36,988 bases of DNA from Desulfotignum sp. (lineage in GTDB: Bacteria > Desulfobacterota > Desulfobacteria > Desulfobacterales > Desulfobacteraceae): the NCBI GenBank assembly GCA_021737445.1, contig JAIPDY010000002.1, forward strand, positions 1-36,988, read 5' to 3'. Both the position numbers and the translations under genes were made by a program. Shown here one piece after another: positions 7,414 through 34,735 of this stretch. Each line of letters begins with the position of its first letter. Position 1 is the stretch's first letter. The notes beneath the pieces are model-generated. The model did not search any database and had not been told where the DNA came from. It worked only from the letters and a program-made list of their open reading frames with translations.

Positions 7414-7639
7414 TATAAAGATTATTGTGTTATTTTTTCATTTTCAGGTTTCAGTACCATGATCATGCCCGGTATTATATCATACCCCCAAAAAATATCC
7501 CAATGACAAATTACAGGCATGCTTGAGTTCCAGCTGCAGCCTGATAGTTTGGACTATCATCTGGTAAACATACCAAAAAAATGATGGTCCCTTTCATCTG
7601 AGGGATGTTTATTTGATTTTGCTTGTTCATGAAATTGTG

Positions 7640-7661
7640 GTATATTGTTCACCCAATATAC
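7640..7661. promoter_or_regulatory. Perfect dyad GTATATTG-N6-CAATATAC, candidate operator
   Basis: 8-bp perfect inverted arms about 155 nt upstream of the liv-operon start. Confidence 0.4.
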
Positions 7662-7815
7662 TTTACACAATAAAGCCAGATGCCATAAACTGCCCGCACC
7701 TTTTGTGCTCAACCGGTACGTTGCCTGCTGCTGATCTTCCCTGCTGCTTATTATGGAAAAATGCAGACAAACCATTGCCAATCATGGTGATGTTTTCAAC
7801 ATAAGGAGAAAAGGT

Positions 7816-9084: not shown

Positions 9085-9146
9085 CAGGCGAATCGTATCA
9101 GCGGATTTACTGTTCTTTTGACCCTTGAACCTGGGAAAGTTGTGTT

Positions 9147-10013: not shown

Positions 10014-11023
10014 GCACACAAACAAGAAGAAAAGAGAGGATCGACCGGGGAATCAAGGTCCGGTCCGATGGGCTGTATGCATTGATGTCCTGGCGGGAGA
10101 TGGCCTACCTGATCGCCCCCCGGTTCATTCTGATTGCAGGGCTGCTGGCGTTGCCGTTTCTCATGCCGGGCCTTTACTGGCAGCGGGTCATCTCCATTGT
10201 CTGCATCTATGCCATGGTGGCGTTGAGTTTTGATTTTCTGGCCCATTATGTGGGACTGGTCTGTCTGGGCGGCGCTTTTTTCATCGGCACCGGGGGATAT
10301 ATCGCCGGCATTTTCAATGCCTATTTCGGTTTTCCCCCGGTGGTGACCATTCCTCTGGCCGCCCTTGCCGGCGGCATTTTCTGCACCCTGCTGCTGCTGC
10401 CCTGCCTGCCTTTGAGAGGTGTGTATTTTGCCATTGTCACGTTGATGTATCCCTTGTTCATGGCCCGGATCATCGAGGCATTCGACCTGTTCGGCGGCAC
10501 GGACGGCATCCTGGGCATCGACAGCTTTCCTTCCGCATTTACAGAGCAGTATTTTGTGGTGGGGATCCTGCTGGTGTTCCTCTTCGGGCTGCGGCGGATC
10601 GTGACCACGGACATGGGGCTGATCTTCACGGCGGTGATGGACAATGACCAGGCCGTGCGGGCATCAGGCATCAATATCACCCATTACAAGGCCCTGGCCG
10701 TATTTATCGCCTCGGCCATGGGGTGCCTGGCCGGGGCCTGTCTCACCCATATCTACATGTGGTCTGGCATCTCCCAGTTTGCCCTGGATTTTTCCATCCT
10801 GCCCATTGCCGCCACGGTGATCGGCGGGGCCGGTACCCTGGTGGGTCCGGTGATCGGGTGTCTCATACTGGTGCCGGTGTCGGAACTGCTGCGCGATTTC
10901 GGTACCCTGCGCATTGTGTTTTACGCCACACTGCTGGTGGCATTCATATTGTTCCGCAGCGACGGCATCATGGCGTTTGCCAAAAGAAAATATGAACAGA
11001 CTGAAAGGTGGACCCGGATATGA
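10010..11023 (+). CDS. livM: Branched-chain amino acid-type ABC transporter permease (LivM family)
   Basis: ORF 9815-11023 trimmed to ATG 10010 (ATGA overlap with livH); 'IYAMVALSFDFLAHYVGLVCLGGAFFIGTGGYIAGIF'. Confidence 0.9.
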   Translation: MSTQTRRKERIDRGIKVRSDGLYALMSWREMAYLIAPRFILIAGLLALPFLMPGLYWQRVISIVCIYAMVALSFDFLAHYVGLVCLGGAFFIGTGGYIAGIFNAYFGFPPVVTIPLAALAGGIFCTLLLLPCLPLRGVYFAIVTLMYPLFMARIIEAFDLFGGTDGILGIDSFPSAFTEQYFVVGILLVFLFGLRRIVTTDMGLIFTAVMDNDQAVRASGINITHYKALAVFIASAMGCLAGACLTHIYMWSGISQFALDFSILPIAATVIGGAGTLVGPVIGCLILVPVSELLRDFGTLRIVFYATLLVAFILFRSDGIMAFAKRKYEQTERWTRI

Positions 11024-11823
11024 GCAAGCAAACCAGACAGGACCAGCCCATTTTGCGCATGGAAAATGTTTCCAAGGTGTTCGGCGGAGTCACCGCATTA
11101 AAACATGTTGACCTGGATGTGTATGAAGGGGATGTCTTAGGCATCATCGGTCCCAACGGGTCCGGCAAAACCACCATTGTCAATTCCATTACCGGGTTTA
11201 TCACCCTGACATCGGGCCGGATCTATTTCAAGGGAGAAGATATTACCGGGAAAAAAGCCCATAAAATTGCGGATATGGGGATAACCCGAACCTTCCAGAT
11301 CATGCGGCCCTACTACAGCCTGCCGGCATTCAAAAACCTGGTGATCCCGCTGTTTTCCCCCAGGGCCAAGCGTACCGGCGGATGGCGGGGCGGCGGAACA
11401 CTTGGTGACCGCAAGACCATTGCCATTGATATCCTGGAGGAAATCGGATTTGAAAGGGACTCTTATATCCCCTTTAAAACCACCTCCACTTTGCCCACAG
11501 GATACCTGAAGCGCCTGGAGCTGGCACGGTGCCTGGCGCTTCAGCCGGAGGTCATCATCTGTGACGAGATATTTTCAGGACTTTCCATGAGTGAAATCGC
11601 CTCCATGGTACCCTTGATAGAACGGCTCCAGGATGAAGGCATCACCATTGTGATGATCGAACACCGCCTGCGGGAACTGTTCCAGGTGGCCAACCGGATC
11701 ATGGTGCTCAATTTCGGGGAAAAACTGGTGGAAGGCGCCCCTGATGATGTCATGGCGGACGAACGGGTCAAGGAAGCCTATTTCGGATCTGAAAAAATGG
11801 AGGAGGTCATGACATATGCTTGA
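11020..11823 (+). CDS. livG: ABC transporter ATP-binding protein (LivG family)
   Basis: Walker A 'GPNGSGKTT', 'MIEHRLRELFQVANRIMVLNFGEKL'; ATGA overlap with livM. Confidence 0.9.
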   Translation: MSKQTRQDQPILRMENVSKVFGGVTALKHVDLDVYEGDVLGIIGPNGSGKTTIVNSITGFITLTSGRIYFKGEDITGKKAHKIADMGITRTFQIMRPYYSLPAFKNLVIPLFSPRAKRTGGWRGGGTLGDRKTIAIDILEEIGFERDSYIPFKTTSTLPTGYLKRLELARCLALQPEVIICDEIFSGLSMSEIASMVPLIERLQDEGITIVMIEHRLRELFQVANRIMVLNFGEKLVEGAPDDVMADERVKEAYFGSEKMEEVMTYA

Positions 11824-12565
11824 AGCCACGGATCTCATGGTGTTTTACGAAAACATGCTGGCATTGAACAACATCAGCATCTTTTGCCGGGACAACCAGA
11901 TAGTGGGGGTTTTCGGTGCCAATTCCGCAGGCAAATCCACCCTGATGTATTCGCTTTCCGGCATTATGCTGGATATCCGGAAAAAAGAAAAAATGTCCGG
12001 GGGCGAGCGGATCACCCTTACCGGACAGCTCTTGTTCCAGGGGCAGGACATCATGGACATGAAACCCAGCAGCCGTGCCCGGGCCGGAATTGTACTCTGT
12101 CCGGAACGCCGGCGCCTGTTTAAGGAAAGCTCTGTCATGGAAAACCTGCGCATCGGCGGGTATCTGGCCACCAAAGCACAGGCAAAGGTCAGTCTGGAGT
12201 TTGTCATGGCCCTGTTCCCTGCCCTGACACGGCTGCAGAAACGCCTGGCCGGTTTCTTAAGCGGCGGTGAACAGCAGATGGTGGCCATCGGCCGGGCCCT
12301 CATGGCCCAGCCCAGGGTTTTGCTGCTGGATGAACCCCTGCTGGGACTAAGCCCGCTGATGCAGGCCACATTGATCAGGGCCGTCAAAAAGATCCAGGAG
12401 GAAAGCGACATCTCCATCATCGTGGCCGAGCAGTATGCCAGACCGGTGTTTCCAATAGTAGATTACGCCTATATCCTGGAAAACGGGGCCGCAGTCATGG
12501 AAGGCACCAGAGAAGAACTCATGGACAACCCGGATGTAAAATCCGCCTATTTTGGCGTGTCATAA
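11816..12565 (+). CDS. livF: ABC transporter ATP-binding protein (LivF family)
   Basis: 'GANSAGKSTLMYSLSG', 'LSGGEQQMVAIGRALMAQPRVLLLDEPLLGLSPL'. Confidence 0.9.
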   Translation: MLEATDLMVFYENMLALNNISIFCRDNQIVGVFGANSAGKSTLMYSLSGIMLDIRKKEKMSGGERITLTGQLLFQGQDIMDMKPSSRARAGIVLCPERRRLFKESSVMENLRIGGYLATKAQAKVSLEFVMALFPALTRLQKRLAGFLSGGEQQMVAIGRALMAQPRVLLLDEPLLGLSPLMQATLIRAVKKIQEESDISIIVAEQYARPVFPIVDYAYILENGAAVMEGTREELMDNPDVKSAYFGVS

Positions 12566-12577
12566 TAAGGAGTACCA

Positions 12578-14236
12578 ATGGTCGATACAATACCCCTTGA
12601 AAAAGAACTGTCCTATTCCAGGTTCGATCTGATGAGCGACACCTACCCGGACAACACCGCTGTGGTATACCTGGGAGAACGCTTCTCCTACCGCCGGCTG
12701 CGGGATATGAGTGAACGGTTTGCCGGAGGCCTGCAATCTATCGGGGTGGGCAAAGGCGACAAGGTGCTCTTGTATATCCCCAACTGCATCCAGTGGATCG
12801 TCTCCTTTCTGGGCATCCAGAAGGCAGGAGCGGTCATGGTTCCTGTGTCACCCATCTATACCTCCCATGAAATCGCCTATATGATCAAGGATTCCGGTGC
12901 AAAAACCATTATCTGCATGGACACCAATTACGGGTATGTCCAGGAAACCTTTGGCCAGACCGGTTTGAAAAAGGCTGTTGTCACCAATCTTATGGATCTT
13001 CTGCCGGTGTGGAAGCGTGTCATGGGGATGATCCTGGACAAGGTGCCGTCGGGCCGGGTGACCTATGATGACAAAGTGGTGCCATTTACATCCCTGCTCA
13101 AGGCATCTCCCATTACAGACAAGCCGGTCCTCGATCCTGTGACAGACCTGTCCTATATCCTTTACACCGGCGGGACAACCGGGTTTCCCAAGGGGGTACC
13201 GGGCAACCATATCGGCGCCACCTCCTATATCAATGATGTCACCTTTGATGTGGCAGGGGAACACCTCAAGGAGGGCGAGGATGTGTATATCGCCATCAAC
13301 CCGCTGTTCCACATCATGGCCCTGGGGTTTTTCATGGCCATCGGCCTGAACAAGGGCAACATGGTGGTGCTCATGCCCCAGCCCCAGGTGGATGCCATCC
13401 TGGAATCCATCCAGCAGTACCGGGTCCGGTGGTTTCTCGGGGTGCCGGCCCTGTACCGCATGATCCTGGAGAACGACCGGCTGGACCAGTATGACCTGTC
13501 CTCTCTGCAATATTGTTTCTGCGGCGGGGATGTACTGCCCGGCAAGGTGATGAACCGGTTCAAGCAGGCCTACGGCCTGCCCATTTACCAGGTGTACGGA
13601 TCCACGGAAGTAGGCCATGTGACCTACAGCAAAATCGGGTCTGAGCCCGCTTCCGGCTCCATTGGATATCCCTTGAAAAGCCGGGAATGCATGGTGGTGG
13701 ATCCGGTTACCCTGGAATGTGTGGAACACGGGGAGAGCGGAGAATTGTTTGTGTCTTCTCCCTATGCATTGAAAGAATATTACGGCAAGCCTGACGAAAC
13801 CCAAAAGACCTATATCAAGGTCAATGACAAGGTGTACTGCCGCATGGGGGACTATGTGTCCTGCCGGCCGGACGGCGAGCTGGTCTATATGGAACGGTCC
13901 GCTGATATCATCAAACACAAGGGATACCGGGTGTCTGCATCGGAGATAGAGGCGGTTCTCCAGGACCATCCCACGGTCATCAACGCCTGTGTCATAGGTG
14001 TGCCTGATGAAAAAACAGGGGAGCGCATCAAGGCCATTGTGGTGCTCAAGGAGGATGCCCGGGGCGTAGGAGGGGTGGAACTGATCAAATGGTGTGCCGA
14101 CCGGCTTGCCTCCTACAAGGTGCCGGGATATGTGGAATTCCGAGACATGCTGCCCAAATCCAAGGTGGGCAAGCTGCTGCGCCGGGAGGTCAGAGACAGT
14201 GAGGTGCGACGAATCACGGGAAAAACAGCAGGCTGA
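12578..14236 (+). CDS. AMP-dependent acyl-CoA synthetase/ligase
   Basis: AMP-binding motif 'YILYTGGTTGFPKGVPGNH', 'YGSTEVGH', C-terminal 'SADIIKHKGYRVSASEIE'; co-directional, 12 nt after livF. Confidence 0.92.
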   Translation: MVDTIPLEKELSYSRFDLMSDTYPDNTAVVYLGERFSYRRLRDMSERFAGGLQSIGVGKGDKVLLYIPNCIQWIVSFLGIQKAGAVMVPVSPIYTSHEIAYMIKDSGAKTIICMDTNYGYVQETFGQTGLKKAVVTNLMDLLPVWKRVMGMILDKVPSGRVTYDDKVVPFTSLLKASPITDKPVLDPVTDLSYILYTGGTTGFPKGVPGNHIGATSYINDVTFDVAGEHLKEGEDVYIAINPLFHIMALGFFMAIGLNKGNMVVLMPQPQVDAILESIQQYRVRWFLGVPALYRMILENDRLDQYDLSSLQYCFCGGDVLPGKVMNRFKQAYGLPIYQVYGSTEVGHVTYSKIGSEPASGSIGYPLKSRECMVVDPVTLECVEHGESGELFVSSPYALKEYYGKPDETQKTYIKVNDKVYCRMGDYVSCRPDGELVYMERSADIIKHKGYRVSASEIEAVLQDHPTVINACVIGVPDEKTGERIKAIVVLKEDARGVGGVELIKWCADRLASYKVPGYVEFRDMLPKSKVGKLLRREVRDSEVRRITGKTAG

Positions 14237-14269
14237 CACCATGACATGTATCTTTTGCCATAACCGGGT

Positions 14270-14697
14270 CCCGTGACAGCGCCTGCCTGCCCACGGAGAT
14301 CAATTTCAAGCCCTCCTGGTTCAAGGGCCGGGCCCACCATCTGTGCATCGTCAGAGACATCACCCGCCGGGTCGAGATGGAAAAAAAGAGCCGGAAAATG
14401 GAGCGCATGGCCTATATCGGGCATCTGACCGCATCTTTGTCCCACGAAATCAGAAACCCGTTGTCATCGGTGAAGATGAACCTGCAGATTTTAGGCAAAA
14501 ACAAGGCCTTTGCCGGCAATGACAAGCGGCGCCTGGCCATATCCGAGCGGGAGATCCACCGTCTGGAAACCATTCTCCAGCAGCTGGTGATCAACCTGCT
14601 GCTCAACGCCCTGGATTCTGTGGCGGACGGCGGCAAAATCATCATCACCACCGCTGCCCGGCATTGGATGCAGGTCACTGGACGACTTGCTTTATAA
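14270..14697 (+). pseudogene. Sensor histidine kinase remnant (PAS end + HisKA H-box fused to HATPase N-box by internal deletion)
   Basis: In-frame 'RDSACLPTEINFKPSWFKGRAHHLCIVRDITRRVEMEKKSRKMERMAYIGHLTASLSHEIRNPLSSVKMNLQIL...HRLETILQQ' joins directly to 'LVINLLLNALDSVADGGKIIITTAA', then a stop; the linker and the rest of HATPase_c are missing. Confidence 0.75.
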
Positions 14698-14743
14698 AAG
14701 CATACGTTGTAGGGTTATTTGAACCGGCAGAAAGGAAAAAAAG

Positions 14744-15475
14744 ATGGATCAGGACAAAAAAATTGCATTGCTCATCGATTGTGACAATGTAAGCCATAAA
14801 TCAATTGAGGGTGTGATCAATGAATTGTCAAAATATGGAAAAGTGAACATCAGACACGCCTATGGGAACTGGAAAAGCGACAGCATGAAAGGATGGGAGG
14901 AAAAACTTCATCCATACGCAATAAAACCTATTCAGCAATTTGTCTATACAACCGGGAAAAATGCTACAGATGCCGCAATGATAATAGATGCCATGGATCT
15001 GTTATATACCCAGAAAATAGATGCATTCGCCCTTATGACCAGTGACAGTGATTTTACTCCTCTTGTTATGAGAATACTGTCCAACGGCATAACGGTTTAC
15101 GGTTTTGGTGAGAAGAAAACACCGCCTCCGTTTGTCAAGGCATGTTCACAGTTTATATTTACTGAAAATCTGGAAACGGCAGAAGACGAAGAATATAAAT
15201 CATCGAAAAACGGAAATTCAAAAAAATCAAGAAATGAACTTCGGGGGGATACGGGACTGGTCAAATTATTGAGAACGGCGGTGGAGCAGTCTGCCGGGGA
15301 AGACGGCTGGTCACATCTTGGTCAGGTAGGTCAGTATATTTCCAACAACACCTCCTTTTCTCCGGTAAACTATGGATACAAAAAACTTGGAGAGCTGATA
15401 AGGGCCTGTGATTTATTCCAAATTCAAATGAGAAATGAAAATTCTGTCATGTACATCAAGGATAAAAAAAATTAA
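14744..15475 (+). CDS. NYN domain (LabA/PIN-like RNase) protein with C-terminal OST-HTH/LOTUS-type domain
   Basis: 'IALLIDCDNVSHKSIEGVINELSKYG', 'DAAMIIDAMDLLYTQKIDAFALMTSDSDFTPLVMRI', C-terminal 'LVKLLRTAVEQSAGEDGWSHLGQVGQYI...YKKLGELIRACDLFQI'. Confidence 0.85.
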   Translation: MDQDKKIALLIDCDNVSHKSIEGVINELSKYGKVNIRHAYGNWKSDSMKGWEEKLHPYAIKPIQQFVYTTGKNATDAAMIIDAMDLLYTQKIDAFALMTSDSDFTPLVMRILSNGITVYGFGEKKTPPPFVKACSQFIFTENLETAEDEEYKSSKNGNSKKSRNELRGDTGLVKLLRTAVEQSAGEDGWSHLGQVGQYISNNTSFSPVNYGYKKLGELIRACDLFQIQMRNENSVMYIKDKKN

Positions 15476-15498
15476 CTGAAACCGATCGGTGCCGGCAT

Positions 15499-15918
15499 CT
15501 ATTTTCTGAATTCATCCCATTTATAATCAATGAGTTCGAGCATCACCCCGTTCATTTTTCTGGGATGGATAAAGGAAAATTCGCAGTCACGGAACGGCCT
15601 GGCACCGCCGATAAACGGATAGTTTTTTTCTTCAAGCTCTGTCATGGCTTCTCTGGTGCTATCCACATTGAAACTTATGAGCATCACCCCTTCGCCCTTT
15701 TTTTCGATGAATTTTGCCACCTCCCCGTCCGGGGTCAAGGATTCCATGAGTTCAAAACCAACTTCTCCGAGCCAGTACCGCGCCACCTTTATCTTTTCAG
15801 ATGCATCAATATACACATCATCAGGCGAGGTTTTTCCCAGGACCGGTTCCCAAACCTTGCGGGCCTGATCCAGATCTTTCACTGCGATACAGATATGATC
15901 GATTTTGTTGATTTTCAA
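15499..15918 (-). CDS. VOC/glyoxalase-family protein, methylmalonyl-CoA epimerase-like
   Basis: 'INKIDHICIAVKDLDQARKVWEPVLG...HPRKMNGVMLELIDYK'; TTG start at 15918 with upstream GGGAGG favoured over ATG 15969. Confidence 0.75.
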   Translation of the reverse strand: MKINKIDHICIAVKDLDQARKVWEPVLGKTSPDDVYIDASEKIKVARYWLGEVGFELMESLTPDGEVAKFIEKKGEGVMLISFNVDSTREAMTELEEKNYPFIGGARPFRDCEFSFIHPRKMNGVMLELIDYKWDEFRK

Positions 15919-15941
15919 TTCATGCCTCCCGGCAAAAAAGT

Positions 15942-16397
15942 TCATCCGATATGCGGGTTCAGGGTCCACTTGATGAACCAGCCCTTTTCATCACGGTCCA
16001 GGCACACAATGCCGGAATTCTGAAACCGGATCACCCGCAGTTCAAGATTTTCGGCCGTCAGAAATGACACCAGCCGCTCCATATAAGGCAGATGTCCCAC
16101 AATCATCCTGTTTGACTCAGGATCGATCCGGGATCCCAGATCGGTGACATCATCCAGCGGACCAATGCCGTCTGCTTTTTCCAACGGCGGATTCACTTTC
16201 AGGATATCCTTGAAAATCTGTGCAGTCTGCTCGGCCCGGGCCTTGCCGCTGTGCACGATTTTTGACACCGGCACCTGATACATCAGGGCCACGTCGGCAA
16301 TTTTCATGGTTTCCTGCCGGCCTATGTCAGACAACCCCTTTGCCGGATCTTTTTCCTTTGACAGGCTTTGCCCGTGCTGTACCAGATAGACAGCCAT
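15942..16397 (-). CDS. Histidine phosphatase family protein (SixA-like)
   Basis: ORF trimmed to ATG 16397: 'MAVYLVQHGQSLSKEKDPAKGLSDIGRQE...IVHSGKARAEQTAQIF...MIVGHLPYMERLVSFL'. Confidence 0.82.
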   Translation of the reverse strand: MAVYLVQHGQSLSKEKDPAKGLSDIGRQETMKIADVALMYQVPVSKIVHSGKARAEQTAQIFKDILKVNPPLEKADGIGPLDDVTDLGSRIDPESNRMIVGHLPYMERLVSFLTAENLELRVIRFQNSGIVCLDRDEKGWFIKWTLNPHIG

Positions 16398-16589
16398 GAG
16401 AACCTCCCTTCTTTTGTCAGTTGTCACAGTTTTGACAATATTATCTGGTTCTCCGATACATGGCAAGTGTTGTGTTTGCCATGGATGGACCTTGCCCGGG
16501 ATATTCATGATTTTCTGAAATGGCTTTACAGGCATTGAAAATGCTGATAAGCAGTTTTCAATATTTTCTTGACTTGGGAGACGTCACCG

Positions 16590-17441
16590 ATGAAAAAAAA
16601 TAAATACGCTGATCCCTTTCTTGAAAAACAGCTGGCCAGAAAAGAATTCCCCCGGTCCAGCCGGTACGACACCGACTGGATCCTGGACAATCAGATGGGG
16701 CCCAATGCGGTATGGCTGGCAGAATGCCTGTGTGAGGCCCTGCCCCTGGAACCGGGCATGCGGGTTTTGGATCTGGGGTGCGGCCGGGCCCTGACCAGTA
16801 TTTTTCTGGCAAAGGAGTTTGACGTACAGGTGTGGGCCACGGACCTGTGGATCACACCGGACCACAACTGGCAGCGGGCCGTCAAGGCGAAGGTTGCCGA
16901 CAAGGTATTTCCCCTGCGGTCGGAGGCCCATGCACTGCCCTATCCGGCAGGGTTCTTCGATGCAGTGGTGTCCATCGATGCCTACCAGTATTTTGGCACC
17001 GATGTGCTGTATCTGGATTACCTGAGCCGGTTTCTTAAACCCGGTGGGATGCTGGGGGTTGTGATGCCGGCGTTGATGCAGGAGATGGGAGATGTCATCC
17101 CTGAACATCTGACCCGGCCCCAGGCCAACGGCAAGGTGTTCTGGGAAGATGGGTGCCGCAGCTTTAAAACAGCTGACTGGTGGCAGAAATTGTGGGAAGG
17201 CGACAGCAGCGTCACCGATGTCCGGATGGAGATTTTGCCCGATGGCTGGCGCTTTTGGCGGGATTTTGAAACCGCCCTTGAGATGGCCGACAAAAGCATT
17301 TTCCCGTCTGATGCCCAGGCCCTGGACCTGGATCAGGGGCGGTATATCGGGTTTGTCCGGGGGATGGCCCGGCGGACCCGGACCGAATCCATGAACCTGT
17401 ATGACCCTGCCATCAGTGCCCGGGTGGGAGTGGACCAGTAG
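16590..17441 (+). CDS. SAM-dependent class I methyltransferase
   Basis: 'GMRVLDLGCGRALTSIFLAKEFDVQVWATDLWI'; 'DAVVSIDAYQYFGTDVLYLDYLSRFLKPGG'. Confidence 0.85.
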   Translation: MKKNKYADPFLEKQLARKEFPRSSRYDTDWILDNQMGPNAVWLAECLCEALPLEPGMRVLDLGCGRALTSIFLAKEFDVQVWATDLWITPDHNWQRAVKAKVADKVFPLRSEAHALPYPAGFFDAVVSIDAYQYFGTDVLYLDYLSRFLKPGGMLGVVMPALMQEMGDVIPEHLTRPQANGKVFWEDGCRSFKTADWWQKLWEGDSSVTDVRMEILPDGWRFWRDFETALEMADKSIFPSDAQALDLDQGRYIGFVRGMARRTRTESMNLYDPAISARVGVDQ

Positions 17442-17477
17442 CCGGACCGGAATCTGGGCATCAAAGGAGGCAGAAAA

Positions 17478-18137
17478 ATGAAACAGATCATTGAAAATAT
17501 CTGGCATGTGGGCGACAGCGGCTGTGCTGTCTATCTGGTGGATACCCGAAGCGATGCAGGGCTGGTGCTGATCGATGCCGGCATGGACCTGGAGATGATC
17601 AGGGACATTGCGGTTAACGGCCTGGGATTTGAAGATATCCGGCACTGTATCCTGACCCACTGCCATATTGACCATACTGCGGTATGTGCCGGATTGTCGC
17701 GGGATCTGCCGGGACTTCGTTTTTATGCCCATGCACTGGATGCACCCCCCATTGAAGAATCCGGCCATGACGGGCGCACCGCCGCCGGCTGGTATGGCAT
17801 CACCTACGAACCGGTCTCCCTGTATAGACAATTTGATGCTGACACTGTGCTGACTCTCGGAAGGATGGACTTTCAGTGCCTGCACATCCCCGGACATACA
17901 CCGGGATCCATTGCCGTAATGGTGGAGTCCGCCGGCAAAAAGGTGCTGTTCGGCCAGGACCTACACGGTCCTTTCAGCGACGATTTTTTCTCAGACCTTG
18001 CTGATTACAAAAAATCCATGGACAGGCTGCTGGCGCTGGATGCTGATATTCTGTGCGAAGGGCATTTCGGCATTTTTCAGCCAAAGGAGCGGATGCGGGA
18101 ATTTATCAAGGAACACCGGGAGAGAAACCTGCGCTGA
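17478..18137 (+). CDS. MBL-fold metallo-hydrolase
   Basis: 'ILTHCHIDHTAVC' (HxHxDH-like), 'LHIPGHTPGSIAVMVE', 'LFGQDLHGPF'. Confidence 0.88.
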   Translation: MKQIIENIWHVGDSGCAVYLVDTRSDAGLVLIDAGMDLEMIRDIAVNGLGFEDIRHCILTHCHIDHTAVCAGLSRDLPGLRFYAHALDAPPIEESGHDGRTAAGWYGITYEPVSLYRQFDADTVLTLGRMDFQCLHIPGHTPGSIAVMVESAGKKVLFGQDLHGPFSDDFFSDLADYKKSMDRLLALDADILCEGHFGIFQPKERMREFIKEHRERNLR

Positions 18138-18311: not shown

Positions 18312-19253
18312 ATGAAACAGATCTTTATAATTTTGATGTTGCTGTCCTTTGCATATGTTCTGGAGGGCAACGAAACTGTCAGCCCGCCACTGCCTTTGCC
18401 GCTGGGAGTGAATCCGGCATCTGTCAGACCACTGGTTGACCTGGTGGATAACCATATGCAGGATCAGCTGTTGCAGCGGCTGAACCAGACCCCCCTGTGG
18501 AAAAAACTGATCCGTGAAAAGAAAATGACAGTGGGACTGGTTGATTTGGCGAATCCGTCAGAAATACGCTATGCAGGGGTGAATGGAAACGAGATGATCT
18601 ACGCGGCCAGTCTTCCCAAAATTGCGATTCTTCTGACCGCGTTTCACTGTTTTGAAAACCGGACACTCGAGCAGACCCCTGAAGTGACCAGGGACCTGCA
18701 TCTCATGATCCGGGCATCAGACAACCAGGCTGCCACCCGTATGATCGAAAGGCTTGGCATGGAACAGATTCAACAGGTTCTAACCCTGAACAGGTATGAC
18801 TTTTACGATGCGGCCCGGGGCGGGGGACTCTGGGTCGGCAAGGAATATGCCAGAACAGGCCGGCGCCTGCCTGAACCGATCAAGGGCTTGAGCCATGCGG
18901 CCAACGCGAGCCAGGTCTGCCGGTTTTACTACCAGCTGGCCATGGGAAAGCTGATCAACCGGGAAAGAAGCAGGGAGATGCTGGAAATCATGGTGAACCC
19001 AGGGATTGAACACAAGTTTGTCAAAACCCTCAAAAAAACCATGCCACAGGCCCTGGTTTTCAGAAAGTCCGGCACATGGAAAACATGGCATTCCGACTCG
19101 GTCCTGGTCTGGGGGCCTGAATGGCGGCGGTATATTGCCGTGGCACTGATTGACAATCCGAACGGGGAAACCATTCTTCGAAAACTGATCCCTGAACTTG
19201 AAGCGGTACTCAGTGAAACGGCCGCTCACAGGCATGCAGCCCGGCGTTCATGA
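18312..19253 (+). CDS. Exported serine hydrolase, class A beta-lactamase/PBP-like fold
   Basis: N-terminal hydrophobic leader; 'AASLPKIAILLTAF' (SxxK), 'IRASDNQAATRMI' (SDN), 'FRKSGTW' (KSG); ATGA overlap with next gene. Confidence 0.82.
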   Translation: MKQIFIILMLLSFAYVLEGNETVSPPLPLPLGVNPASVRPLVDLVDNHMQDQLLQRLNQTPLWKKLIREKKMTVGLVDLANPSEIRYAGVNGNEMIYAASLPKIAILLTAFHCFENRTLEQTPEVTRDLHLMIRASDNQAATRMIERLGMEQIQQVLTLNRYDFYDAARGGGLWVGKEYARTGRRLPEPIKGLSHAANASQVCRFYYQLAMGKLINRERSREMLEIMVNPGIEHKFVKTLKKTMPQALVFRKSGTWKTWHSDSVLVWGPEWRRYIAVALIDNPNGETILRKLIPELEAVLSETAAHRHAARRS

Positions 19254-22150
19254 TCCGATCCACAAAACATGGCGGCCTGCAGTATCCCTTTTTGACCCTG
19301 TTTCAAAAACTGTTCGATGTTCGGGAAGGTGAGGTGCACCGGACGGTGGGAATGTTTGTTTACCTGCTGCTGCTTGTCGCTGCCTTGATGATGATCAAAC
19401 CCGTGAGCACTGCCCTGTTTCTGACCCAGTTCGGGGCCCGGCATCTGCCCTTTGCCTATATACTGACCGCTTTGTTTGCCGCGACACTGGCGTATGGGTA
19501 TTCTGTCATGCTCAAAAAAACCGTGCTGGAGACATTGATGAAATCAACGTTGAGCAGTGCGATTTTCCTGCTGCTGGTATTCTGGGTGTTTATCCACAAC
19601 CAATGGTTTCAGGGCATGATTCTGTATCTGTTTTTTGTCTGGGCCGGGCTGACAGCCCTGATCTGTGTTTCCCAGTTCTGGCTGGCAGCCGGACACTTTT
19701 TCAACATGCGGGAAGCCAAGCGACTGTTCGGTCCCATCGGATCCGGGGCCATCATCGGGGGCATCGCCGGCGGGTATGTGACCCGGCTTCTGGCACCTGT
19801 CCTGGGCAGTGACTCTCTGATCATAGCCGGGGCAGTCTGCCTGTTTCTGTGTATCAAAATCATGGATATCATGTGGAAAACCTGCGGCCATCCGGATCTC
19901 CCTTCCCGGACAAATCTGCGGTCCCAGGCGCCGGAGGCTGAACCTTCAACAGTCATGCAGATCTTCAAATCCCGTCATCTGAGTTATCTGGCCGTGATCC
20001 TGGCCCTCAGCGTCATTGCCGCCCGCCTGGTGGACTACCAGTTCAATGCCCTTGTTTCTGCCGTGATCACCGACCCGGACCAACTGGCTGCATTTCTGGG
20101 ATTCTGGATGTCCAATCTCAATTTCATAGCCCTTCTGGTGCAGGTGTTCATGACCCGCCGGATCATTGAAAAGGCCGGTGTCGGGTCCTCCCTGTTTTTT
20201 CTGCCGGCAGCCGTGTGCCTCGGGGGAATTGTCACCCTGATTCATCCGGCGCTGTGGTCGGCGGTGGTAATCAAGCTAAGCGAAGGCGGATTCAAGAACT
20301 CACTGAACAAATCCAGCATGGAGCTGCTGTTTCTGCCGGTTCCCCTGAAGATCAAAAACCAGGCCAAGGCGTTCATCGATGTGTTCGTGGACAGTACCGC
20401 CGGGGGCATCGGCGGTGTGATCCTGGCATTTCTGGTGTTTGCCGTTGATATTTCCCCGGCACAGATCAGCTGGATCCTGTTTGGCCTGGCTGCCGTCTGG
20501 ATGGTGCTGATCCGCCATGTCAAAAAAGCGTATATTCAATCCTTCAAGGACAAGTTCGACCAGCTGGACGATACCGAAACCAGTCTGACCGGCCCGATTC
20601 CAGACAATGAACAGGTCATTGAAAAAATTGTCCAGGTGCTTGCCGGATCTGATGAAAAAGAGATATTCAAGATGCTTCAGATGATATCCGAATTTCACAA
20701 TGACAGACTGGCAGACAGTTTTGTACAGCTTTTGGATCATGACAATCCAGATATCGCTGCCGAGGCCCTGAGGCAGCTGTATTTTTCAAAACAGACCGAT
20801 GTTTCACACAAGGCCCGCGAACTGCTGGGTTCAGATCATCTGGCCCTGCAGACCGAGGCGGTCCGGTATCTGTTCCACCATGCTGCGGATCAGACCGGCT
20901 GCATGTCCACGTTTCTGGAAAACCACGATTCCCGTCTCCAGGATGCGGCACTGCTGTGCCTGGTCAGGGAAGCCAGGAAAAACAGGACCTTGAAAGCCAG
21001 ATTCGCCCCGGACCGGCTGATCGAATCCCGGCTGCACGCAGTTGCGGATATCACGGATCCGGCCCTGGCCCGGGCTGCCAAAAAAATTTGCATACAGGCT
21101 ATCAGCCTGTCCGATATCTATCCGCTGTATCCCTATCTGAACCTGTTCATGGAAGATCCGGACACCGAGGTGGTGACCGCCGCCATCCATGGGGCCGGTC
21201 AGACCGGGCATCCACAATTCATACGGGTTCTTGTCTCATTTCTGGGCAGAAAAACCGTGTTCAAAAAAGCCGCCATGGCGGCACTGACCCGCTATGGCAC
21301 CCCGCTGCTGGATCAGCTGGGAGAGCATCTGTCCAATCCCTATATTCCCTATAATATCCGGAAGCGTCTGCCGGAAGTGATTGCATCGTCCGGGAGCCAG
21401 AAAGCGGTGGACCTGCTGTCCCGTCATCTGGCCCAGACGGACCTGGGCCTCAGGTACGAGGTGATCCGTGCCCTGAACAAACTGCGGATCCGGTCCGGCA
21501 CCCTGTTTTTCGATCACATCCGGCTGGTACCCAGGATCAGGCGTGAAGCCGGGGATTATATGGATATGCTCCTGATCCTGTATGCCCACAGGCAGATTGA
21601 ATCCGATCCCGGTAAAACAAAAAAGGGAACTGCCATTTCCCGGGCCAGAGAACAGCTGATCCTGGGACTGGAAGTCCGTCTGGATGCCAGCCTTGAAAGG
21701 CTGTTTCGGCTGCTGGGCCTGAAATATCCCCCCGTGGAAATGTACAGTGCCTACAAGGGGATCCGCAGTTCGGACCGGGAGGTCCGCATGAGTGCTATGG
21801 AATTTCTGGACAATATCCTGGACGGAAACCTCAAGCATATAATCATGCCGGTCATTGAGACCGGAGGGATGGCTGCTGACATGGCCCGTCATTCCCTTGA
21901 AGAGGAGATCCCCGGGGAATATGACTCCTGCGTGGCCCTGCTCAACAGTCAGGATGATTTCTTAAAAGCCAAAACGCTCTATCTGCTGGCATTCATGGAC
22001 GATGACCGGTATATCCCCCATATGGCCGCACTGCTGGACAACCCGGCCCGGAGTGTCAGCGACATGGCCCGGTTCGCCCTCAGAAAATCGGGCCGGTTTG
22101 CACTCAGTCAGAGAAAAGCGGCTCACAGGCATCCGCCGCCGCAGATTTAG
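19250..22150 (+). CDS. NTT (ATP:ADP antiporter)/MFS-like membrane transporter with C-terminal HEAT-like repeats, 966 aa
   Basis: N-terminal ~430 aa multi-TM NTT-like ('MMIKPVSTALFLTQFGARHLPFAYILTALFAATLAYGYS', 'AKRLFGPIGSGAIIGGIAGG'), then ~500 aa of helical repeats ('DNPDIAAEALRQLYF', 'LALQTEAVRYLFHHA', 'DSRLQDAALLCLVREA'). Confidence 0.78.
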   Translation: MIRSTKHGGLQYPFLTLFQKLFDVREGEVHRTVGMFVYLLLLVAALMMIKPVSTALFLTQFGARHLPFAYILTALFAATLAYGYSVMLKKTVLETLMKSTLSSAIFLLLVFWVFIHNQWFQGMILYLFFVWAGLTALICVSQFWLAAGHFFNMREAKRLFGPIGSGAIIGGIAGGYVTRLLAPVLGSDSLIIAGAVCLFLCIKIMDIMWKTCGHPDLPSRTNLRSQAPEAEPSTVMQIFKSRHLSYLAVILALSVIAARLVDYQFNALVSAVITDPDQLAAFLGFWMSNLNFIALLVQVFMTRRIIEKAGVGSSLFFLPAAVCLGGIVTLIHPALWSAVVIKLSEGGFKNSLNKSSMELLFLPVPLKIKNQAKAFIDVFVDSTAGGIGGVILAFLVFAVDISPAQISWILFGLAAVWMVLIRHVKKAYIQSFKDKFDQLDDTETSLTGPIPDNEQVIEKIVQVLAGSDEKEIFKMLQMISEFHNDRLADSFVQLLDHDNPDIAAEALRQLYFSKQTDVSHKARELLGSDHLALQTEAVRYLFHHAADQTGCMSTFLENHDSRLQDAALLCLVREARKNRTLKARFAPDRLIESRLHAVADITDPALARAAKKICIQAISLSDIYPLYPYLNLFMEDPDTEVVTAAIHGAGQTGHPQFIRVLVSFLGRKTVFKKAAMAALTRYGTPLLDQLGEHLSNPYIPYNIRKRLPEVIASSGSQKAVDLLSRHLAQTDLGLRYEVIRALNKLRIRSGTLFFDHIRLVPRIRREAGDYMDMLLILYAHRQIESDPGKTKKGTAISRAREQLILGLEVRLDASLERLFRLLGLKYPPVEMYSAYKGIRSSDREVRMSAMEFLDNILDGNLKHIIMPVIETGGMAADMARHSLEEEIPGEYDSCVALLNSQDDFLKAKTLYLLAFMDDDRYIPHMAALLDNPARSVSDMARFALRKSGRFALSQRKAAHRHPPPQI

Positions 22151-23436
22151 GGCAGGTGCCTGATGATGGTATCGATCTGGGTGGCCAGGGTCTGATGGTC
22201 CACGGCTGAGTTTTTTTTCAGCACGTTGGTCATCAGTGCGACCAGGTAGATCCGTGAATCCGGGTGTTCGACGATGGCCACCGAATTCATCACGTTTTCC
22301 TGGTTGCCCATGTATTTTCTGCAGGTAAACCCCGGTTCCGGCACACACCGGTACAGGCTGCCGGATTTGAAATACACGGCAGCGCCCCCAAGGGCCGGGG
22401 AGGAGGCATACCGGATCCGCCGGGCCGTGGTGTACATCAGGCGCTTGATTTCCAGGCTGGACCAGGGATCCACCAGCCGGCCCTGTTCCAGGGCCACCAG
22501 AAATTTGAGCAGTCCTGCGGGCGTGGCCCGGCTGTCCCCTGTGCCGGGAATCCGTTTTTTTCCTTCACTGGTAAACAGGCTGCCCAGATGAAAGTCCTGC
22601 CGGGAGAGACCGGCCCGGGTCAACGGTTCGTTCACCACCTCTTCGGCCAGATCGGACAGGGCTGTTTTTGGCATTGTGGCAAAAAAATGGTCTTCGGTTT
22701 CCCGATCAGGCGGATAGCCGGACCCGAAATGGCGCATCAGGATGAGCTCCTTCCACAGCACGCTGGCCGCGGCGTTGGCGCTGGCCGAAATCATGTGATC
22801 CGCCCATTCATACAGGGAGAACTGGTCCTCGGTCCGGACGGGCCGGCTGCTGTATTCACCGGTTTCCGGCACAAACAAGGGGATGGTGTGGTGATCAGAA
22901 ATGATCCAGGGCCCGGCCGTAACCATCCGGGTTTTCAACAGGTGCCGGCGATCTTCCACATCATCGGGAAACAGGCGCTGCAGCTGGGCGAACAGCCCGG
23001 CAGCCACGGCCAGCTTGCCGACACTGCCCACTGGAAATCTGCGGTCGGCCTGCTGCCATGCCATCCTGGCCGGACGGCCCGGTGAGATATCCAGTATAAC
23101 CAGGGAATAGCTTTCATCCCGGTCAGGGAACAGGGACCGGATCTGTTTCTGGAAACCGGGGTCGATCAGGGCACCGGCTTCTGACAGATCCAGGGGGGTG
23201 GATGTCAGGTGAAGTGTGATCTGTTCCGTGGCAAGCCTGGCACCCGGCGGCAGCACCGGTTTTTCGGTCTGGCCGGATAACACAGGCGCCAGACGTTGCA
23301 GCCGGCGGATCCCGGTGGTGTCATACCCGTCCACTGGATAGGCCCGGGCAGATGCCAGGGACAGGAACAGGCTGATGCACAGGCAGGCGAGTCCGGTCAT
23401 TAAAACAGGAATTGAATGGGGATAGCGGTCTGTCAC
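22147..23436 (-). CDS. Second exported serine hydrolase, class A beta-lactamase-like, 429 aa
   Basis: GTG start with AGGAGGTGA; signal peptide; 'PVGSVGKLAVAAGLFAQL' (SxxK), 'SASANAAASVLWKEL' (SxN), 'YFKSGSLYR' (KSG). Confidence 0.78.
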   Translation of the reverse strand: MTDRYPHSIPVLMTGLACLCISLFLSLASARAYPVDGYDTTGIRRLQRLAPVLSGQTEKPVLPPGARLATEQITLHLTSTPLDLSEAGALIDPGFQKQIRSLFPDRDESYSLVILDISPGRPARMAWQQADRRFPVGSVGKLAVAAGLFAQLQRLFPDDVEDRRHLLKTRMVTAGPWIISDHHTIPLFVPETGEYSSRPVRTEDQFSLYEWADHMISASANAAASVLWKELILMRHFGSGYPPDRETEDHFFATMPKTALSDLAEEVVNEPLTRAGLSRQDFHLGSLFTSEGKKRIPGTGDSRATPAGLLKFLVALEQGRLVDPWSSLEIKRLMYTTARRIRYASSPALGGAAVYFKSGSLYRCVPEPGFTCRKYMGNQENVMNSVAIVEHPDSRIYLVALMTNVLKKNSAVDHQTLATQIDTIIRHLP

Positions 23437-26363
23437 GGGGTCACCTCCTGATGCAGTAAAACGGTTTTCGGGGTCTGGTTCATCCGGTCCAGTGACTGCA
23501 GATAGGCCAGCATTCCGGCTTTCTTGTTTTCGACAAACGGACGGATCTGAAACAGGCGCAGAGATCCGTTGATAAATCCCAGCTCGATGTCATAGGGGCC
23601 ATCTCCTTCGATCCCGGGCGTGCCCGGAATCGTCTGCCGGACCCGGTGGACAAGATCCCGGATGGCCTGCCGGTCATCGGGTGTCAGCACCGGCTGATCA
23701 AAATGAACCGCTGCCCTTTCCACCCCGCCGGACGCCGGCAGCCTTGTGGCCTTGGGCTCCCTGGACGGGGAAAAAAGAATGTCCTGTCCCGTGCCGGTCA
23801 TCAGATAGGTCTCAGCGGCCTGCCCTTCCACAGCCCCTCCGGCGCCCCGGCTGAAGGCGGCCGTGACATCTTCTCCGGAACCGGACACAATGCCGTGGGT
23901 GATGACCACTCCTGACCGGTCCACATTCACCGTGGGAAGCAGCAGGATGGAGGGAAACACGTTTTCCGGATTTTCAAGGTATTTCTGGCGCCACATATAG
24001 CTTCTTTCGCTGTAGGGAGAGGCCCATACATCCCGGATAGCCTGAAGAATGGCCGTCTGATTCCTGACATTGAAAACGGTGAGGTTCAATCCGGCGCCGG
24101 TAAAATCGCTGATGTCTTCCATGTTGGTGTCACTGCGGATAAACACCGGCACCTCGCCCAAAGGGGCCTGGAACACCGCCTGGAACTGCTCTGCCAGGGC
24201 AATTTCCAGTCCGGACAGCAGCGGCATGGTGCGGATGGCGGACTGAAGCTCTGCCAGCTCTGCCATCTGCCCGGTCTCCCCATTGGCACGGCGGTCCAGG
24301 GCCCGGGTCAGAAACTGCCAGTAACTGCCGCCGGTGCCGGGCATGGGCTGGTCCATGTGCTGCCGGAATATGCCAAAGGGGATCACTATACCCTCTCCCA
24401 CAAAATCAGGAAAAAGGTGTTTCAACTCCCCCAGGTTCGCGGCCTTGGGACCGCAGATCCGGCCGGAATCAACCGCCCTCAGGTCACTCAGGCGGATCAA
24501 TGCGGTTTGTTCAAGCACGATCTTTTCAGTGGGCACCCGGAACCGCTCCTGTTTTCTCTCCCGTTTCCGGACCAGCCGGCGCTCTTCTTCTGTCAGCCGG
24601 TGATCCGGCTTGAGCACAATCACCCCGCCCGGGGATACTGCATAGAACAGGGTCTGCCCGGCCCAGGGCACCAGGTTGTCCAGGCCCTGCCGGGAGACCA
24701 CGGTATTGGGAATGCCCAGGTTCCTGGCCAGCAGCTGGACATGGGAGACCAGGTTGCCTTCGGAAACCGTGAACATCCCGGCCACCGGCTTGAGTTCCGG
24801 CGGAATGGTGCCAAAGCCGTAAATCTTTGCCGGATCGGTCTCTTTCATGGCGTTGCCCGTGCCGGGGATTTCCAGAACACCGTAAGCCAATCCCGCGTTC
24901 ATGCCCCGAAAGTGGCGGGATGGAACCCCGTCGGGCAGTTGATGGGTAATGCCGGAAAAATGCTGCACCATCCCGGCCAGTATTCCCAGGGTGTCCCCCA
25001 GTGGCAGCAGGATCGAGGACCGGACCCGGTCATCCATGAATCCGGCCGTTTGGGGTTCGAACCCGGAGAACCGCTGGATTTCCGGCAGATAAACGGACTG
25101 AATCATGGCGGTTCCCCAGTCGACCGTCCGTGTCAGCTGTTCAGCCTTCAGGCGGAACAGCTCAAACGGCAGGGCGTTCTCCTGCGGTGACGGCTGAAAG
25201 CGTTCCACTGCCTCCCATTCCCAGATTTCCAGGTATCCGCACCCGGCAGCGGCCTTGATCAGGACCCGGCATTTGTCCATCAGCTCTTCCAGGGTCCGGG
25301 GCTCCCAGGTACGGATGGTTGAAAACAGGATATGCTCCATGTCAATGGAGATATCCATCAGGGGGAGTCTGAGCTGGGGGGGCGCTTGTGTCACTGTCGA
25401 ACGGATCTTGAAAATCAGGTCTGCCATGTCCTGGAACGGGTTGGCGGTTCCGGTGGGGTATGCAGTGCCGCCCCGGGCCAGGTATTCTTTTGATACGGCC
25501 AGGGCGGACCGGTTTTCAGACAGAGCGGCCAGGCTCATGGATTTTGCCGCCAGCAGTCTGTCGAGGCGGTGGATAGGTTTAACCGCATACTCGGCCTCAA
25601 GGTTCAGGAGCAACTCCTTGAACAGGGCAGCCTGCCGGCTGTCAAGTCCCTGTACCCTGCTTTTCACAAAATCTTTGACCCGGTCAAGGTCCCCGGCATC
25701 GGGCTGACCGTGAATCTTGACCCGCAGGTCCGTGAAATCGGGAATCTGGTCGGACAGGGTTTTGGATACGGCCCGGATGGTGTGCAGCCGGTCCTGGTTC
25801 TGAGAGAAGTGGGGGATGGTCCGGCAGGCCTCCCGGATCACAAAAAACCGGTCCTGGATTTGTTCGGGCCTGCCCAGCACATGGTCCAGGAACCGCCCGC
25901 CCCAGGCTGCCTCATCCTCTGCCTGGATCGCCCCCCGGTAATATCGGGCCCGGCGGTAGATCCACCCGTCATCCACCTGGAACAGATACCGGACCAGTGC
26001 CTGCTGCTTTATCCGGGAATGATCTGCGGCCGCATCCCAAATGACGTCATGGGAAGTTCCGGACAGCACCAGGTCCAGATAGATCTGCCGGGTGCCGGCA
26101 AGGTCGGAAACCCACTGTTTGGGCAACCCGTGCTGTAATCCACCGGGCACTGGACACCGCTGTGCAGCGGGCAGCACCCGCCCGTCCGGGCAGAACCATT
26201 TGATGGCCTGGTACGGGCCTCTGGGATCTTTTTTCAACGCCTGAACCATGGATGCGATCTCCGGATCGGTCAGGGCCAGGGCCGGGGATTGCCAGAAAAT
26301 CACCAGGCAGAGCAGGGCCTGGCATACGAATACCAGCCATGTTGTTTTCAATCGTTTATTCAT
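23433..26363 (-). CDS. Exported PEP/pyruvate-binding (PPDK_N-type ATP-grasp) protein with glucan-water-dikinase-like domain order
   Basis: ORF 23433-26498 trimmed to ATG 26363 (signal peptide 'MNKRLKTTWLVFVCQALLCLVIFWQSPALA'); 'VSEGNLVSHVQLLARNLGIPN' (phospho-His-like), then 'CGPKAANLGELK', 'VFIRSDTNMEDISDFTGAGLNLTVFNV', 'YDIELGFINGSLRLFQIRPF' (PPDK_N). Confidence 0.8.
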   Translation of the reverse strand: MNKRLKTTWLVFVCQALLCLVIFWQSPALALTDPEIASMVQALKKDPRGPYQAIKWFCPDGRVLPAAQRCPVPGGLQHGLPKQWVSDLAGTRQIYLDLVLSGTSHDVIWDAAADHSRIKQQALVRYLFQVDDGWIYRRARYYRGAIQAEDEAAWGGRFLDHVLGRPEQIQDRFFVIREACRTIPHFSQNQDRLHTIRAVSKTLSDQIPDFTDLRVKIHGQPDAGDLDRVKDFVKSRVQGLDSRQAALFKELLLNLEAEYAVKPIHRLDRLLAAKSMSLAALSENRSALAVSKEYLARGGTAYPTGTANPFQDMADLIFKIRSTVTQAPPQLRLPLMDISIDMEHILFSTIRTWEPRTLEELMDKCRVLIKAAAGCGYLEIWEWEAVERFQPSPQENALPFELFRLKAEQLTRTVDWGTAMIQSVYLPEIQRFSGFEPQTAGFMDDRVRSSILLPLGDTLGILAGMVQHFSGITHQLPDGVPSRHFRGMNAGLAYGVLEIPGTGNAMKETDPAKIYGFGTIPPELKPVAGMFTVSEGNLVSHVQLLARNLGIPNTVVSRQGLDNLVPWAGQTLFYAVSPGGVIVLKPDHRLTEEERRLVRKRERKQERFRVPTEKIVLEQTALIRLSDLRAVDSGRICGPKAANLGELKHLFPDFVGEGIVIPFGIFRQHMDQPMPGTGGSYWQFLTRALDRRANGETGQMAELAELQSAIRTMPLLSGLEIALAEQFQAVFQAPLGEVPVFIRSDTNMEDISDFTGAGLNLTVFNVRNQTAILQAIRDVWASPYSERSYMWRQKYLENPENVFPSILLLPTVNVDRSGVVITHGIVSGSGEDVTAAFSRGAGGAVEGQAAETYLMTGTGQDILFSPSREPKATRLPASGGVERAAVHFDQPVLTPDDRQAIRDLVHRVRQTIPGTPGIEGDGPYDIELGFINGSLRLFQIRPFVENKKAGMLAYLQSLDRMNQTPKTVLLHQEVTP

Positions 26364-26389
26364 TACCACCTCATGATCATCATGATTTG

Positions 26390-26515
26390 TCATTTTGCCC
26401 CCAGGGATGCGGTGATCAGGCAGGCACCGCGTGAAACCAGTGCCGCACCAGGGATGGTCCACACCCATACCAGTATAATATTGCCGGCAACGCCCCACCG
26501 CACGGCCGAACGCCG
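26390..26515 (-). pseudogene. C-terminal remnant of an inorganic phosphate transporter (PiT family)
   Basis: Minus-strand frame reads 'RRSAVRWGVAGNIILVWVWTIPGAALVSRGACLITASLGAK*', matching the PiT C-terminal pattern (RLSAVRWGVAGNIVxAWxLTIPxAAL); no start or upstream domains. Confidence 0.65.
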
Positions 26516-33295: not shown

Positions 33296-34735
33296 ATGAA
33301 AAAGATCGGCAGATTCACCATCACAGGCCTGCTGGGCAAAGGGGGCATGGGCAGGGTATATAAGATAGCCTATCCTGTCACCAAAAAAATCGCCGCCTTA
33401 AAGCTGCTGGAACCATCTTCTCTGCTGGCCGGTCTTACACCAGAAAAAGCGCTGGAAGAGATGTTCACCAAAGAAGCCGTCACCATGGCTGCCATCCGGC
33501 ATCCCCATGTGGTGGATATCCTGGATTTCGGGCGGACAGGAAACCAGCTGTATTATATCATGGATTATTTTTGCAACAACCTGGGAACCCTTATGGGTGA
33601 ATCCTTTGAAGAGGATGACACCCGGGTTGTTCCCATTGAAAAAGCGGTGCCCTATACCACCCAGATATTGAGAGGCCTTGTGTGTCTCCATTTTTCCGGT
33701 ATTATCCACAGAGATATCAAGCCTGCCAATATGTTGATCACAGACCTGGATACGGTGAAAATTTGTGATTTCGGCCTGTCCCTGCGCCAGGGTGAACGGC
33801 TAAAGCGGCATGGTAGCATCCGGGTGGGTTCCCCCTATTACGCAGCCCCGGAACAGGAGGCAGATCCGGACAATGTTGATGTTACGGCAGATCTGTATGC
33901 CGTGGGCATCATGCTGTACAAGATGCTCACCGGCCGGCTGCCCCAAAAGAGCGGTTCCCCGGCATCGCAGATGAACCCGGATCTGGATGTGTCCTGGGAC
34001 CGGTTTTTTGCCAAAGCCCTTGATCCGGATCCGGCCGGGCGGTTCCCAGGGGCGGATACCATGTGCCGGGACCTGGAAGGACTGGCCCGGGCCTGGAAGA
34101 CAAAAAAAGAGCAAATCTGTTCCATGCCGGCAGAGCTGGAACAAAAAAACGACCATGTGCCCAAAAAAGCACAACAGCCAAAAGCAGGCCCGGCCGCATC
34201 CGGCCGTGAAAAAAGTGACGGGCAGGGATCAGGACATCCGGCATCTGACATCAAAAAGCCGGCTCCGGTGCGTGCCGTTCCCGGAAAAATCCCCTTGAAC
34301 AAGGCCCGTGCTTTTTTTGATCTGGACCGGTTCATGCAGCCCCGCCGATATATTGCCAATGATTTTTTTGTGCCCAGCGACGGCCTGGTGCATGACCGGC
34401 ATACCGGTCTTGTGTGGCAGCAGTCCGGCACCTGGTTTCCTGTTACCTGGTTTCAGGCCAAAACCTATGTAAAACAGTTGAATTTCCGGCAGTTTGGGGG
34501 ATATACAGCATGGCGCCTGCCCACCATCCATGAACTGCTCACCCTTGCCGTGCCCCCGGCAAAAGGCCGTGACCATTGCATCTCACCAATATTTGATGCA
34601 GAACAGAAGTGGCTGTGGGGAGCAGATAAAAGCACATTTGTGTCAGCCTGGTACATGAATCTGGAGATGGGATTTGTGGGCAGAAATGATTTTACCGGTT
34701 TTTACCATGTCAAGGCTGTGTGTTCAGCCTTTTAG
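33296..34735 (+). CDS. Ser/Thr protein kinase with C-terminal DUF1566 (Lcl-type) domain
   Basis: 'GLLGKGGMGRVYK', 'HRDIKPANMLI', 'KICDFGLSL', 'YAAPEQ'; C-terminal 'DGLVHDRHTGLVWQQSG...AKTYVKQLNFRQFGGYTAWRLPTIHELLTL' is DUF1566-like. Confidence 0.88.
   Translation: MKKIGRFTITGLLGKGGMGRVYKIAYPVTKKIAALKLLEPSSLLAGLTPEKALEEMFTKEAVTMAAIRHPHVVDILDFGRTGNQLYYIMDYFCNNLGTLMGESFEEDDTRVVPIEKAVPYTTQILRGLVCLHFSGIIHRDIKPANMLITDLDTVKICDFGLSLRQGERLKRHGSIRVGSPYYAAPEQEADPDNVDVTADLYAVGIMLYKMLTGRLPQKSGSPASQMNPDLDVSWDRFFAKALDPDPAGRFPGADTMCRDLEGLARAWKTKKEQICSMPAELEQKNDHVPKKAQQPKAGPAASGREKSDGQGSGHPASDIKKPAPVRAVPGKIPLNKARAFFDLDRFMQPRRYIANDFFVPSDGLVHDRHTGLVWQQSGTWFPVTWFQAKTYVKQLNFRQFGGYTAWRLPTIHELLTLAVPPAKGRDHCISPIFDAEQKWLWGADKSTFVSAWYMNLEMGFVGRNDFTGFYHVKAVCSAF

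Follow-up and report, generated by a model that had tools for sequence, protein, structure and literature searches.

The periplasm is generally held to be free of ATP, and for this reason kinases located there would be expected to lack fuel. What, then, would an exported protein of the dikinase type do in such a compartment? The question is raised by a locus of Desulfotignum sp. (Desulfobacterota; GenBank assembly GCA_021737445.1, contig JAIPDY010000002.1, positions 1 to 36,988; this whole stretch of 36,988 nucleotides is hereafter the window), in which four adjoining genes encode two putative serine hydrolases (P1 and P3), a protein of the ATP/ADP carrier type (P2) and a dikinase-like protein with a predicted signal peptide (P4). 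An earlier note on this DNA had called the four genes a possible undescribed envelope system. The component families are known, and no description of the module was found in the open-access literature on periplasmic ATP, on periplasmic kinases or on this gene set. The analysis described here indicates that the four genes almost certainly constitute a functional module; that this module is an accessory, ATP-powered dikinase system of the periplasm acting on an envelope polymer is a reading whose chances we take to be evenly balanced.

Layout and conservation of the four genes

The genes, and the P4 features that matter for the argument, are located as follows.

18312-19253, plus strand: P1, 313 aa, predicted exported SxxK serine hydrolase of the PBP-A/class A type
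19250-22150, plus strand: P2, 966 aa, NTT (TLC ATP/ADP carrier) membrane domain (about residues 1-436) and C-terminal HEAT-repeat domain
22147-23436, minus strand: P3, 429 aa, GTG start, predicted exported PBP-A-like SxxK serine hydrolase
23433-26363, minus strand: P4, 976 aa from the ATG at 26363, predicted exported dikinase-like protein
23520-24455, minus strand: ATP-grasp domain of P4 (PPDK_N, residues 637-948)
24741-24743, minus strand: codon of P4 His541

The four open reading frames, their two translational couplings and the convergent overlap of stop codons are all present as the earlier note described them. P1 and P2 are coupled through an ATGA overlap (19250-19253), P3 and P4 through a GTGA overlap (23433-23436) with AGGAGG preceding P3, and the stop codons of the convergent genes P2 and P3 overlap at 22147-22150. 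The longest frame of P4 covers 23433-26498 of the minus strand, the GTG at 26498 representing an in-frame upstream extension; the ATG at 26363 is preferred as the start because a signal-peptide-like sequence follows it directly. A lone 4-bp overlap is little informative by itself, and chance is excluded as the origin of the layout because the whole of it recurs in other phyla.

When about 85,000 species genomes were scanned, at least 569 relatives of P4 were recovered, and the best 80 of these were used for locus comparison. These 80 loci belong to Desulfobacterota, KSB1, Calditrichota, SAR324, Rhodothermia and many Bacteroidota, the last being the dominant group, and the module is not chiefly one of Desulfobacterota. 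Lack of conserved co-occurrence had been named beforehand as what would count against the system; instead, all four genes, all convergent, were found in 57 of the 65 loci in which the sequence continues for 5.5 kb or more after P4, which is a conservative figure since locus L082 has all four genes yet fell outside the overlap limit of the script. In 60 of 73 loci P4 and P3 overlap or are no more than 10 bp apart, and no fifth gene was found to recur around the module beyond lineage-specific neighbours. The convergent layout is repeated in genome G030; in G029 the order P4-P3-NTT-P1 is collinear and the NTT is devoid of HEAT repeats, and in G020 the two gene pairs lie about 20 kb apart.

The association extends to gene presence. 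P4 was detected in 11 of 297 evenly drawn Bacteroidota genomes and P1 in exactly the same 11 and none else (uncorrected for kinship), with specific NTT-HEAT matches (E < 1e-138) in 9 of these 11 and in 0 of the remaining genomes of the sample. Among 59 relatives of the Desulfotignum genome, full-length P4 is encoded in G000, G030, G029, G020 and G042, and P1 coincides with P4 in exactly these 5 genomes, again uncorrected for kinship. Parts of the module are unlinked, far apart or on separate contigs in G590 and G474, yet co-present, and an NTT-HEAT protein is encoded in 14 of 14 P4 genomes checked, mostly chosen for having no linked NTT (13 of 14 at E < 1e-170). The correspondence of P1 and P4 is less close in the wider sample of Desulfobacterota; in G277 P4 is present and no P1 match was found, the contig ending at the expected P1 site. 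Full-length P4 or P1 was not found in any of the 12 congeners of G000 (G001-G012), and the module is therefore regarded as accessory, its distribution probably reflecting acquisition by transfer or widespread loss.

Some variants and rejected assignments are recorded here. P1 is duplicated in tandem in two Lutibacter loci (L143 and L145). In variant locus L074 of G327 (4021-17774), P4 precedes an NTT devoid of HEAT repeats, a pair of proteins whose N-termini are related (an SHGC motif is present in one of them) and a protein combining a cyclic-nucleotide-binding domain (cNBD) with HEAT repeats; a 5'-nucleotidase gene (PF02872, PF00149) is divergent to P4. A known defence system was ruled out, as no PADLOC match was obtained, and exclusivity of NTT-HEAT proteins in general to P4 was discarded, many other NTT-HEAT proteins occurring without it.

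Domains and active-site motifs of the encoded proteins

P4 comprises a predicted signal peptide, a mostly helical N-terminal region (about residues 33-470), a phosphohistidine-type domain and a C-terminal ATP-grasp domain. Its export, as proposed in the earlier note, is very probable: besides the predicted signal peptide of P4 itself, a hydrophobic signal-type N-terminus was found in 79 of 79 family members, as well as in 70 of 70 P3 and 62 of 62 P1 proteins. The same test is passed by 42-51% of control open reading frames (42% of those without internal transmembrane segments); as it is not sharp, it was used only as a family-wide pattern. No recognised relative was found for the helical region.

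The presence of both ATP-grasp and phosphohistidine domains was borne out. Pfam PPDK_N matches P4 with 70.7 bits (cut-off 27), PF00391 was detected in 47 of 50 family members, and the profile of these 50 matches both domains of PEP synthase 8a8e in swapped order (E 9e-31 overall). His541 lies in the invariant motif EGNxxSHVQLLARNLGIPN and corresponds in the alignment to the SH in the mobile His domain of 8a8e; no variation occurs among the 50 aligned sequences at H541, K640, R743, E749, D750, E927, Q939 and R941. The closest fold to the ATP-grasp domain of the predicted model (pLDDT 87) is that of rifampin phosphotransferase 5hv6_B (TM score 0.84, target length).

PEP synthase, pyruvate phosphate dikinase (PPDK) and rifampin phosphotransferase (RPH) are cytoplasmic enzymes with homologous ATP-grasp and swivelling His domains; P4 differs from them in its permuted domain order, and neither a PEP/pyruvate-binding barrel nor a rifampin-binding domain was found in it. 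In glucan, water dikinase (GWD) the phosphohistidine domain stands ahead of the C-terminal PPDK_N domain, which is the order of P4, and the label "dikinase-like" of the earlier note, sound as to the domains, can thus be refined to the GWD domain order. P4 further shares with GWD and phosphoglucan, water dikinase (PWD) an invariant catalytic His and ATP-grasp residues (H541, K640, R743, Q939 and R941 of the 50 sequences) and a motif, SHVxxxARN, which we take to resemble that of GWD. It differs from them in being bacterial, predicted to be exported and without starch-binding modules, and Pfam GWD1_pHisD is only marginal in the family (7 of 50 members, best 0.017). GWD converts ATP to AMP and Pi via phosphohistidine (PMC7569903), and by homology nucleotide binding is likely, and phosphohistidine dikinase chemistry probable, for P4 as well.

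In agreement with the carrier type first assigned to it, P2 matches the Pfam TLC ATP/ADP transporter family (PF03219; 28.5 bits, cut-off 21) and HEAT_2 (55.5, cut-off 27.7), and its NTT domain aligns with the solved ATP/ADP carriers 9j3n along the full length (E 2e-29) and 9j3j over most of it (7e-24). The conserved E/K carrier motifs of the module NTTs (E155, K157, E358, K369 and K373) align with those of the solved carriers. NTT-HEAT fusions, which share with P2 the C-terminal HEAT repeats, are widespread in free-living bacteria and uncharacterised according to Major et al. (2017; PMC5381601), in whose consulted passages no mention is made of a connection with an exported dikinase and a pair of hydrolases. 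The module NTTs differ from that clade at large in grouping with P4 genomes: they form one side of a weakly supported branch (91/53), the join being unsure owing to long branches. That P2 supplies nucleotide seems somewhat more likely than not.

P1 and P3 are both recognised by Pfam Beta-lactamase2 (PF13354; 60.3 and 37.3 bits, cut-off 22) and share SxxK, SxN and KSG with class A beta-lactamases. The motifs of P1 are S100LPK103, S136DN138, K252SG254 and the invariant GGGLWVGK (170-177), and they vary little or not at all across 27 aligned and 62 family members; P3 displays S138VGK141, S219AN221, K357SG359 and two invariant cysteines (364 and 372). SxxK, SxN and KSG are retained throughout both families. 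Degenerate catalytic residues in homologues had also been named as evidence against the system, and the residues proved intact in the P4, P1 and P3 families. A putative SxxK hydrolase in each gene pair is confirmed, and PBP-A-like describes it better than class A beta-lactamase-like: PBP-A is the best PDB fold match of P3 (AlphaFold pLDDT 92.7), at a low identity of about 16%, and the sole PDB match of the P1 profile. In the P1 alignment no Glu that might correspond to the one in the Omega loop of beta-lactamases is invariant in the stretch from SxN to KSG. Both proteins lie below the 200-bit cut-off of class A beta-lactamase model NF033103 (P1 16, P3 24.3). Family motifs, GGGLWVGK in P1 and YPxDGY with the two cysteines in P3, set them apart from PBP-A, which in Thermosynechococcus is a DD-carboxypeptidase/endopeptidase of class A fold without the beta-lactamase Glu (PMC11189452).

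A possible route of periplasmic phosphorylation and its rivals

From these features we infer ATP export, an envelope acceptor and a role for the hydrolases. P2 would reside in the inner membrane, moving cytoplasmic ATP out and spent nucleotide back and so providing a periplasmic ATP supply. P4, exported by its signal peptide, would bind this ATP in the C-terminal ATP-grasp domain; as modelled on GWD and RPH (PMC7569903, PMC4844700), the beta-phosphate would pass to His541 of the swivelling phosphohistidine domain and the gamma-phosphate to water, with release of AMP, and the phosphoryl group would then be transferred to an acceptor held by the helical N-terminal region. P3 and P1, as exported PBP-A-like SxxK peptidases, may prepare or trim the acceptor. 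Because both are nearest to PBP-A, peptidoglycan or a similar peptide-bearing polymer is the guess for the acceptor; a peptidoglycan-related one is a tentative and somewhat doubtful choice. That ATP crosses the inner membrane of free-living bacteria in several phyla through a carrier dedicated to this export, and that an exported water-dikinase uses it to phosphorylate an envelope polymer, has, in our estimation, slightly less than an even chance. An analogy is offered by AXER/SLC35B1, a dedicated ATP/ADP exchanger feeding ATP users in a non-cytosolic compartment, which is eukaryotic and belongs to unrelated protein families (PMC6113206).

An apparently exported enzyme with intact ATP-grasp and phosphohistidine motifs, kept with a nucleotide carrier across phyla, makes the assumption of an ATP-free periplasm testable. 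If the proposal is true, a compact accessory module would sustain a periplasmic ATP economy, the bacterial envelope may prove to bear a phosphate modification, and a functional setting would be given to NTT-HEAT proteins, the role of which was left open at their description (PMC5381601).

Several observations weigh against the proposal. No sugar-binding module was recognised in P4 and no carbohydrate-binding module (CBM) match was obtained. Known NTTs mainly swap ATP for ADP, whereas a dikinase releases AMP, and among the conserved genes of the module there is none for AMP recycling; only in G327 does a 5'-nucleotidase of periplasmic type adjoin P4. Strong P1-family hydrolases occur without P4 in 4 of 345 Desulfobacterota genomes; in G332, G246, G137 and G064 (loci L182-L185), other Desulfobacterota, a P1-family protein is encoded and the remaining module genes are missing, which rules out a strict confinement of P1 to the module. 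In G327, P4 and an NTT are present, and no P1 match was found in the searches made. The SAR324 genome G405 has distant NTT-HEAT proteins only, and in the P4-bearing Bacteroidota G595 and G611 all NTT matches are weaker or non-specific, G595 encoding a short NTT only and G611 NTTs similar to those of the P4-less genome G607. Finally, P2 may move something else, since NTT-HEAT proteins are uncharacterised according to Major et al. (PMC5381601).

Four other readings were considered. Acyl donors can serve as substrates of SxxK enzymes with this fold, and P1 and P3 might be transpeptidases or transacylases that build an envelope polymer or a secreted metabolite, with P4 as an ATP-dependent ligase or activator whose phosphohistidine activates a carboxyl or similar group. 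The PPDK_N region is indeed common to the prodigiosin/undecylprodigiosin ligases PigC and RedH (P4 scores 50.2 and 54.3 bits); these scores are far under the ligase cut-offs of 1300-1350, PEP synthase-type models score equal or higher, and no recurrent biosynthetic genes surround the module, which leaves this reading unlikely. Somewhat less probable still is an island for the inactivation of antibiotics or toxins, in which P4 would do outside the cytoplasm what rifampin phosphotransferase does within it, namely phosphorylate a drug, and the hydrolases would open beta-lactams or similar compounds. The nearness of the ATP-grasp fold to 5hv6_B, the class A-type hydrolases and the patchy distribution fit such an island, but P4 reaches 47.8 bits against the cut-off of 999 of rifamycin phosphotransferase model NF041857, its domain order is unlike that of RPH (PMC4844700), the class A beta-lactamase scores of P1 and P3 are far under the cut-off, P1 has no invariant counterpart of the Omega-loop Glu, and no resistance gene recurs in the neighbourhood. 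A plasmid-borne resistance island was ruled out, with 0 P4 matches on 72,556 plasmids.

The remaining two readings concern the direction or the very existence of transport. If P2 imported external nucleotides and P4 acted on extracellular ones, the module would scavenge nucleotide or phosphate, as the 5'-nucleotidase beside P4 in G327 and the ATP import by characterised parasite NTTs (PMC5381601) might suggest; the carriers of the module are mostly free-living bacteria with large genomes, however, a dikinase uses up rather than frees nucleotide, and the two conserved PBP-A-like enzymes would be left unexplained, so that we give this scheme a very low probability. An equally small chance is assigned to a regulatory or structural role, with P2 as a non-transporting sensor-scaffold whose HEAT repeats recruit partners and P4 as a phospho-relay protein instead of a metabolic enzyme. 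A link to cyclic-nucleotide-binding domains is described for other NTT-HEAT proteins (PMC5381601), and a cNBD-HEAT protein lies near P4 in G327; conversely, the carrier motifs are conserved in the module NTTs and HEAT-less NTTs accompany P4 in G029, G020 and G327, for which reasons transport looks like the retained part.

Neighbouring genes in the window

The region 5' of P4 (26364-28039) contains gene remnants in six-frame reading. One frame, AVRWGVAGNIILVWVWTIPGAALV, presumably resembles the C-terminal part of a PiT phosphate transporter, and fragments of the plus strand are rhodanese-like, both by our own recognition without a database match; the remnants suggest a rearranged insertion zone. 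Elsewhere in the window, adjoining genes of the Omp85 and TamB families (292-7413) form an ordinary envelope pair, a putative RNA-binding nuclease with NYN and OST-HTH/LOTUS domains is encoded at 14744-15475, and a single protein at 33296-34735 combines a Ser/Thr protein kinase domain with an Lcl C-terminal domain.

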